NCBI GenBank assembly: GCA_023150875.1
Contig: JAKLKC010000023.1
Span: forward strand, 1 to 64,000
Direction of reading: 5' to 3'
Length of the DNA: 64,000 bases
Origin: Myxococcota bacterium
GTDB taxonomy: Bacteria; Myxococcota_A; UBA796; UBA9615; JAKLKC01
Positions 16,462 through 18,853 of this stretch are shown here, piece by piece. Each line of letters starts with the position of its first letter. The first letter of the stretch is position 1. Under the pieces are notes generated by a model that had not been told where the DNA came from, made no database searches, and worked only from the letters and a program-made list of their open reading frames with translations. A program made the position numbers and the translations under genes.

Positions 16462-17409
16462 CTACTCGAATAGGGAGGAGACGGAGTCGCTGTTGTGGAT
16501 CCGCTCGATGGCCTCGCCGAGGAGACCCGCGACCGAGTGGGCGCGGATCTTGGGGCTCGCCGCGGCGGCCTCCGAGAGCGGGATCGTGTCGGACACGATC
16601 AGCGCCTCGATGACCGACTCGGAGATGCGCGACACCGCCTTGCCCGACAGCACCGCGTGGGTGCAGCAGGCGAAGACGCGAGACGCGCCCTTCCCCGCCA
16701 GGGCCGAAGCGGCCTGGGTCAGGGTCCCCGCGGTATCGACCATGTCGTCGAGTAGTATGGCGGTCTTCCCCGCCACGTCACCGATGATGTTCATCCCAGC
16801 GACCACGTTGGGGCCCTCGCGCCGCTTGTCGATCACGGCGAGGTCGCTGTCGAGGGACTTGGCGAACGCGCGGGCACGCTCGACGCCGCCCGCATCGGGA
16901 GAGACGACCACCGTCTTCCCGGCCTCGTGGAACTCCTGGAGGGCCTTGAGCATCACCGGCTTGGCGTAGAGATGGTCCACCGGGATGTCGAAGAAGCCCT
17001 GGATCTGGCCCGCGTGCAGGTCGACGGTGAGGATGCGGTCGGCCCCCGCGGCCTGCAGCAGGTCCGCCACGAGCTTCGAGGAGATGGGGGTGCGGGGGAG
17101 AACCTTGCGGTCCTGGCGGGCGTAACCGAAGTAGGGGATCACGGCGGTGATGCGGTCGGCCGAGGCCCTCTTGGCCGCGTCCATGATCACCAGCAGCTCC
17201 ATCAGGTTCTCGTTGACCGGCGGGCAGGTGGGCTGGACGATGAACACGTCGCGGCCCCGAATGTTCTCGTGGATCTCCACGAAGACCTCGCCGTCGCTGA
17301 AGCGGCGAACGGTCATCCGCCCGAGGGTCTGCCCCATGCCCTCCGCCATCCGCTCGGCGAAGGGGCGGTTGGCGTTGCCCGACAGGATCTTGAGGGGACC
17401 GTACTGCAT
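16462..17409 (-). CDS. prs: Ribose-phosphate pyrophosphokinase
   Basis: 315 aa from the ATG at 17409, the usual length. It makes PRPP from ribose 5-phosphate and ATP for nucleotide, His and Trp synthesis. Motifs include [40 protein letters not shown], the metal-binding [18 protein letters not shown], the catalytic-loop region [18 protein letters not shown], and the PRPP loop [12 protein letters not shown]. An extension of the frame to 17910 runs through the non-coding hairpin array and was rejected. The 5' leader contains or abuts that array. Confidence 0.98.
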
Positions 17410-17457
17410 GGATGTTCCGCGGACCTGGTGACCCGGCGGCGGGCCGGGGGGACAGGG

Positions 17458-17648
17458 CGGCGCCGGTCGCGCCGCGGAATCGCGCAATCGTAATCGTTCA
17501 GCTCCCCCCACGGGGGGAGGGGCCCAATCCCTTCGGGGATTGGGAGGGGGGCGGCGCCCCCCTGGAATCGCCTGGACGGCGATTCCCCGCGGGGGGTGCG
17601 GGCGGCCGGATTCACTCCGGCCGTCCAGGGGGGGCGCGTGCCCCCCCT
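17458..17648. repeat. Packed array of perfect GC-rich hairpins upstream of prs
   Basis: The 328-bp gap between rlmN and prs holds seven perfect inverted repeats. They are 17458-17474 (6-bp stem), 17502-17519 (8 bp), 17523-17544 (CCCAATCCC-TTCG-GGGATTGGG, 9 bp with a UUCG-type loop), 17545-17563 (AGGGGGGC-GGC-GCCCCCCT), 17564-17586 (GGAATCGCC-TGGAC-GGCGATTCC), 17603-17623 (CGGCCGGA-TTCAC-TCCGGCCG) and 17627-17648 (9 bp, GCGT loop). Units three to five abut without a spacer. TGGACGG (17573-17579) can also pair with CCGTCCA (17621-17627), giving an alternative long-range fold. It may be a REP/BIME-like element or a structured 5' leader of prs. Nothing else is seen in the gap. Confidence 0.85.
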
Positions 17649-17737
17649 GAAGGGCAGCGCGCAAACTAGCACCGCCCCCGCCGGCGGTCAAGCGGGCGAT
17701 GCCAGAAAAACCTTGCAGCGGGGCGGCGATCCGGCCC

Positions 17738-18853
17738 CTACCCCTCCGGGACCGCTGGGACCACGGGGAGGGTGGGACGGCCGGGGCGTGCCTGGGCGTA
17801 TCCCCCGAGCTGTCCGCACGCGGCGGCCACGTCGTCGCCCCGGGTCGTGCGGACGCTGGTCTGGACCCCGCGGTCCAGGAGGGCCTGCTGGTACTCTCGC
17901 ACCGCCCCATCGGTGGGCCGCCGGTACTCCGTCAGGGGTGTGGGGTTGTAGGGGATCAGGTTCACCTTGGCCGGGATCCCCCGCAGGAGCCTCGCAAGGC
18001 GCGCCGCGTCCTCCACGTCGTCGTTGATGCCCCGGAGCAGGATGTACTCGAAGGTGATGAGCTTCCGCTGGGGAAGGGGGAAGCGCCGGCACGCCTCCAG
18101 CACCTCTTCCAGGGAGAACCGCCCGGAGATGGGCATGAGCGCTTCGCGGGCGGCCTGGGTCGTGCCGTGGAGCGACACGGCCAGGTTGATGGGGGAACGC
18201 TCCCCCAGCTCCTTCATGCGGGGCACGATGCCGACGGTGGAGAGGGTGATCTTCCGGTGGCTGAAGTTCAGGCCGTCCTCGTACTGGACCACCTCCACGG
18301 CGTCCATGACGGCATCGAAGTTCAGCAGGGGCTCCCCCATGCCCATCAGGACGATGTTGCTGACTCGCCGATCCGAGAGCTCCTGGGCCTGGATCACCTG
18401 GTTCACGATCTCCGCCGCGGTCAGGTTCCGGGTGAAGCCCCCCTTGGCGGTGACGCAGAAGCGGCACGCCATGGCGCAGCCGACCTGGGTCGAGACGCAG
18501 AGGGTCAGGCGCCCCTCCTCGGGGATCAGCACGCTCTCGATCCGGAGCCCGTCGTCGAGCCGCCACACCAGCTTCGCCGAGCCGTCGTCGCTGCCCTGCC
18601 GGTGGACGAGCTCCAGGCGGGAGAGCCGGGCCACCCGGTCCAGCTCGGCGCGGAAGTCCTTGGACAGGTCGGTCATCTCGGCGAAGGTCCGGGCGCGGCG
18701 CTGGTAGATCCACTTCAGGATCTGGCGCGCGCGGAACCGCTCCTTGCCCAGCGGGCGGAGGAAGGCCTCGATTCCGGCCAGGGTCATGCCCTTCAGGTCG
18801 ACGCGGTCGTCGGAGGCCGGGGCTGGCCCGGCTGGGGTGTCGGGGGAGGTCAT
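17738..18853 (-). CDS. rlmN: Dual-specificity 23S rRNA/tRNA (adenine C2) methyltransferase RlmN
   Basis: 371 aa. This radical SAM enzyme methylates A2503 of 23S rRNA and A37 of some tRNAs. The cluster motif is CAMACRFC (CX3CX2C) in a [20 protein letters not shown] context. [15 protein letters not shown] is typical of the family, and a late Cys in the [10 protein letters not shown] segment fits the second catalytic Cys of the methyl-relay mechanism. The N-terminal domain ([20 protein letters not shown]) is the usual HhH-like RNA-binding fold. It lies 46 bp after the RNase G gene on the same strand. Confidence 0.97.

Follow-up and report, generated by a model that had tools for sequence, protein, structure and literature searches.

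Insertion sequences of the ISBst12 group of IS66 (ISBst12; ISDge4, PMC12898284) are transposase-coding elements of 1.5-2 kb with ends of the GTAAnnG(T/C)TCAG type and an 8-bp target duplication. ISDge4 from Deinococcus geothermalis, a member of the group that transposes, has an 8-bp repeat and the ends GTGACTACTCAGCA/GTAACTGCTCAGCA (PMC12898284). The MITE described here shares this type of end and the 8-bp duplication, but is about 170 bp long and non-coding, and the coding ISBst12-like elements examined show no evident hairpin packing of this sort at their ends. In being short, non-coding, bounded by terminal inverted repeats, and probably moved in trans, it is like MITEPsy1 (PMC3189936) and MITEAba12 (PMC6382973), both of which, in the available parts of their descriptions, are related to other insertion sequences—MITEPsy1 perhaps to IS5, with a 4-nt duplication (PMC3189936, PMC6382973). 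The RAYT-associated REP/BIME repeats (PMC2817692) are likewise intergenic, dispersed, and palindromic, but are tied to tyrosine transposases and are not defined by terminal repeats with an 8-bp duplication (PMC2817692). No description of ISBst12/IS66 MITEs with the ends reported below was found in the open literature; the cross-phylum extent of the class and its covarying hairpin interior may be new.

The window, a stretch of 64,000 nucleotides from a Myxococcota genome, carries a cluster of hairpins between rlmN and prs (Table 1), and the whole is very probably explained by a decayed ISBst12/IS66-type MITE, the fold of which was selected during the spread of the element and not for prs. Judged by all of its sequence features, the element is a MITE: it is short and non-coding, has terminal inverted repeats and a fixed 8-bp duplication, and occurs in several dispersed copies.

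Table 1. Coordinates of the MITE, its parts, and the neighbouring genes in the window.
Feature	Position	Strand	Size or pairing	Remarks
prs, ribose-phosphate pyrophosphokinase	16462..17409	-		PF13793, PF14572; neighbour, outside element
Seventh stem	17458-17474		6 bp	outside the MITE
Left target duplication GCGCAATC	17482..17489	.		7/8 bases identical to 17659-17666
MITE, subfamily A	17490..17658	+	169 bp	limits from aligned copies; sister copies 169 and 170 bp
Left terminal inverted repeat GTAATCGTTCAG	17490..17501	+	12 bp	pattern GTAANNGTTCAG
Hairpin 1	17502-17509/17512-17519 (17502..17519)		8 bp	weakest stem when copies are compared (68% of cells paired)
Hairpin 2	17523-17531/17536-17544 (17523..17544)		9 bp	subfamilies differ by one C-G to G-C change
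Hairpin 3	17545-17552/17556-17563 (17545..17563)		8 bp	both sides changed in two pairs
Hairpin 4	17564-17572/17578-17586 (17564..17586)		9 bp	both sides changed in four pairs
Hairpin 5	17602-17609/17617-17624 (17602..17624)		7 perfect + one G-T	both sides changed in two pairs
Hairpin 6	17626-17635/17640-17649 (17626..17649)		10 bp	extends into right terminal repeat
Right terminal inverted repeat, decayed	17647..17658	-		CTGAAGGGCAGC versus CTGAACAGTTAC
Right target duplication GCGCAAAC	17659..17666	.		7/8 bases identical to 17482-17489
rlmN, 23S rRNA methyltransferase	17738..18853	-		PF21016, PF04055; neighbour, outside element

The hairpins upstream of prs that were noted in the preliminary description are real, with six stems in 17502-17649 and a seventh outside; 102 bases lie in perfect stem pairs, equal to the earlier count, and hairpins 2, 3, and 4 do abut. 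The UUCG loop also noted there exists in plus-strand RNA only—that is, prs-sense RNA carries CGAA in the loop of hairpin 2, because prs is on the minus strand—and the corresponding TTCG loop was seen in the window copy only. The MFE of positions 17458-17660 was calculated to be -136.9 kcal/mol, compared with -105.3 kcal/mol (sd 4.8) for shuffles (z -6.6), with 0 of 200 shuffles equalling it, and the whole rlmN-prs gap folds at z -5.8 relative to shuffles.

Alignment of the copies gave sharp limits, namely GTAAnCGTTCAG at the left and CTGAACnGnTAC at the right. The sister copies end in GTAAnnGTTCAG/CTGAACnGnTAC, and the right end of the window copy is decayed. The window duplication GCGCAATC/GCGCAAAC was obtained with the element length fixed at 169 bp, as in the sisters of 169 and 170 bp. 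Within the source genome, perfect 8-bp direct repeats surround three copies (C77, C111:19438, and C125), and two full copies (C106 and C111:62863) are without a target duplication.

Matches to the region were found in 17 places of the source genome, several of them ending at contig ends. Copies and fragments related to the element number at least 15; they lie by unrelated genes and, in many cases, where contigs break. The GTAAnnGTTCAG end, searched for with the pattern GTAANNGTTCAG, occurs 22 times genome-wide, a few of these occurrences being single ends with no element visible, and the reversed control occurs 0 times. Subfamilies A (window, C77, C111:62863, C147, and others) and B (C106, C111:19438, C125, C162, C20, and C161) have a common stem layout at 70-75% identity, and in two further sets (C31/C180 and C22/C128/C174) the ends are shared while the interiors differ. 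C31:1-140 and C180:51831-52032 represent a third family, with an identical left end, a similar layout, and different stems, the right end of which was not found there. C22, C128, and C174 (L012, L025, and L029), seen at contig ends alone, show the element's right half, beyond which the sequence is a different one (CCTCGGCCTTGCGGGCGCAGGG...); this may be a further MITE family or the terminus of an autonomous element that has been lost.

The preliminary description had proposed a regulatory leader for prs. As a riboswitch or attenuator, the hairpins in the 5' untranslated region would control expression in cis. Although the region folds strongly and only 80 bases separate the prs start from the element, which sits upstream of it on the transcribed side, such a leader is very improbable. 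The neighbours of other copies include nadA, a histidine kinase, tusA with a peptidyl-prolyl isomerase, and an FAD-binding oxidoreductase, and thus there is no tie to prs; in 112 relatives no convincing match to the element was found, while prs itself is present. Furthermore, no Rfam match was obtained in the window at the gathering threshold (with only tRNAs in 16 other loci), positions 17300-17800 showed neither an intrinsic-terminator nor a sigma-70 promoter pattern, and pairs are lost in young copies without compensation. No empty site was found in the relatives, all of which are outside the family and in which rlmN and prs are not adjacent. Since the insert is only 80 bases from the start of prs, it could by accident affect this gene. 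A structured RNA, the third of the earlier suggestions, is conceivable.

The kind of transposase is suggested by divergent single-ORF IS66 proteins that are bounded by the ends of the MITE, as observed in G005:C30, G005:C803, G077, G082, G058, and Roseburia inulinivorans. The first of these, from the order of the window genome, is 1984 bp long, with GTAACCGTTCAG at both ends and the perfect duplication CCTCGAGG; the R. inulinivorans element has one end exact and the other with one change. PF03050 was detected in all three of the single-ORF proteins tested, and DUF6444 in two of those. In one MITE-rich genome (G395), a DUF6444 reading frame starts 55 bp inside such an end, after which the contig stops; in another (G145), an IS66-type C-terminal fragment adjoins a one-mismatch copy of the end. 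This layout matches that of the ISBst12 group, and the link of the MITE to ISBst12 rests on the shared ends. No ISBst12/IS66-type transposase gene was found in the source assembly, which breaks inside these repeats, so that the absence of the transposase from the source genome is not certain; several MITE-bearing genomes likewise gave no PF03050 match. It had been noted earlier that no integrase lies nearby; this is correct, yet it misleads, since an element of this kind would depend on mobilization in trans.

Two other candidates were rejected. Canonical IS66 was considered as the partner, and the intact copies in relatives and hosts end otherwise (GTAAGCGTCAAATAAC and GTAAGCACGCAGC, with 8-bp duplications). 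Longer elements with the same ends were sought in 8-kb loci, and the end pairs found 0.9-3.7 kb apart have no target duplication; those that were checked enclose ordinary genes.

The earlier suggestion of a REP/BIME-like repeat was right in part. The element is indeed dispersed, intergenic, and palindromic, as would be expected of a repeat mobilized by RAYT (a Y1 tyrosine transposase), but the identity with REP/BIME fails on the long terminal inverted repeats, the 8-bp target duplications, and kinship with a DDE (IS66/ISBst12) transposon, the same ends being carried by IS66-type DDE elements. Y1 transposition is not known to make such duplications. Mobilization by RAYT is therefore hardly credible.

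Scanning of a genome collection for the two ends at a distance of 149-179 bp, a range of spacing imposed by the search, revealed at least 118 elements with the end pair in at least 117 stretches. Among the matches listed, 50 of 118 elements have a perfect 8-bp duplication, and 65 have a duplication matching at 7 or 8 of 8 positions, compared with a chance expectation of 0.04 of 116. The hosts among these listed matches belong to the Lachnospiraceae, other Clostridia, Chloroflexota, Desulfobacterales (Desulfobacterota), and Myxococcales (Myxococcota), and further to Nitrospirae, KSB1, Armatimonadota, an Actinomycetota MAG, and Roizmanbacteria. Of 379 genomes from the phylum to which the window genome belongs, only 3 have the end pair: besides the source genome itself, these are two MAGs from a single genus, in which 22 and 40 matches were counted strand-wise. 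The reversed end pair gave 0 matches in all 379. One of the two MAGs (G364:C71) appears, from its identical sequence and coordinates, to be the Myxococcales MAG CSSed165cm_553 (L080). Grouped by sequence, the interiors of the listed elements and of the source-genome copies form 14 clusters plus 38 singletons, and most are thus unrelated. With the terminal 14 bp removed, the interiors of the matches listed fold at a median z of -5.1, with 75% below -3, versus -0.1 and 1% for flanks of equal length, which makes hairpin packing typical of the class. The Myxococcales elements are weakly structured (z +0.4 to -2.8); Myxococcales elements with a GGGATTCACTCCC hairpin resembling hairpin 5 were also observed, and the ATTCACT loop of hairpin 5 is invariant among all source-genome copies.

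Several listed elements are of interest in themselves. L072, L096, L106, and L107 contain extra terminal motifs, as if they were nested or composite insertions, and L096 has an inner pair of ends, separated by 133 bp, that is flanked by a perfect 8-bp duplication. Within GTAAnnGTTCAG-ended elements, REP-like palindromes (GTCATTGCGAGG...GCAATGACA) are present in Chloroflexota (L067, L093, L105, L108, and L116), and the palindrome CCTCCCTCTGAGAGGGAGG in Clostridiales (L062 and L125). Because such palindromes lie inside these elements, the MITEs may carry certain orphan palindrome families as cargo.

Covariation was assessed both in the source genome and in 28 Lachnospiraceae-type elements. In the source genome, 10 of 52 pairs are changed on both sides, and the covariation score is 0.244, compared with 0.111 for shuffles and 0.027-0.072 for slid controls. 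The number of doubly changed pairs is not above that of shuffles (163 of 500 reach the same), as only two subfamilies contribute, whereas the cells and the score are above. In the Lachnospiraceae-type elements, compensation is seen at 23 of 47 pairs, with 176 cells versus 62 in shuffles and a score of 0.327 versus 0.126 in shuffles and at most 0.071 when slid, values favoured by the structure having been predicted from the same alignment on which it was tested. These 28 elements (e.g., L060:7552-7715 and L110:625-789) have a strongly covarying multi-branched fold, absent from Rfam, which includes a long variable hairpin ending in CATGCAAGCATG.

Between subfamilies A and B of the source genome there are 8-10 compensatory differences, and within subfamilies 0, with 2-6 broken pairs per comparison; as related copies share ancestry, the changes in the source genome represent few independent events. 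Conservation and covariation of the stems, raised in the preliminary description, thus hold between copies of the element, but not at the prs locus. Since the stems covary between subfamilies and only decay within them, selection on the fold appears to act on the spreading element and not on prs, the pattern being what one would see if the spreading lineage maintains the fold and copies may decay freely once resident.

The paired changes of the same element might instead be purely mutational. Correction of imperfect palindromes by template switching during replication is a generally known process, and would perfect the palindromes with no selection; the supply of the source-genome changes by only two subfamilies accords with it. 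However, within subfamilies the pairs break singly and none is corrected, where resident copies should be corrected too, and in the Lachnospiraceae family many pair types occur at a given position. An exclusively mutational origin is therefore unlikely, and selection on the fold during spread is preferred.

In the mechanism proposed for this selected element, an ISBst12-type transposase would act in trans on both ends, and insertion between rlmN and prs would have duplicated GCGCAATC, with the window copy presumably decaying since. The folded form would be selected while the element spreads, rather than for the regulation of prs. Its benefit may be to aid transposition, as single-stranded or cruciform DNA or as RNA; alternatively, a folded insert may do little harm at the landing site.

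A wider proposal, which is tentative and somewhat doubtful, is that of a cross-phylum class of ISBst12-type MITEs that need their covarying multi-stem interior, as a folded single strand of DNA or RNA, for their own spread. If this is true, the folded strand would be a working part of transposition or of element survival, in a DDE system for which no such requirement is known. Apart from this proposal, the MITE reading accounts for a group of orphan palindrome clusters found in several phyla. Because young copies decay and lineages compensate, the elements offer a natural test of selection for a fold inside a DDE transposon. They also provide a signature for annotation, namely GTAAnnGTTCAG...CTGAACnnTTAC with an 8-bp duplication.
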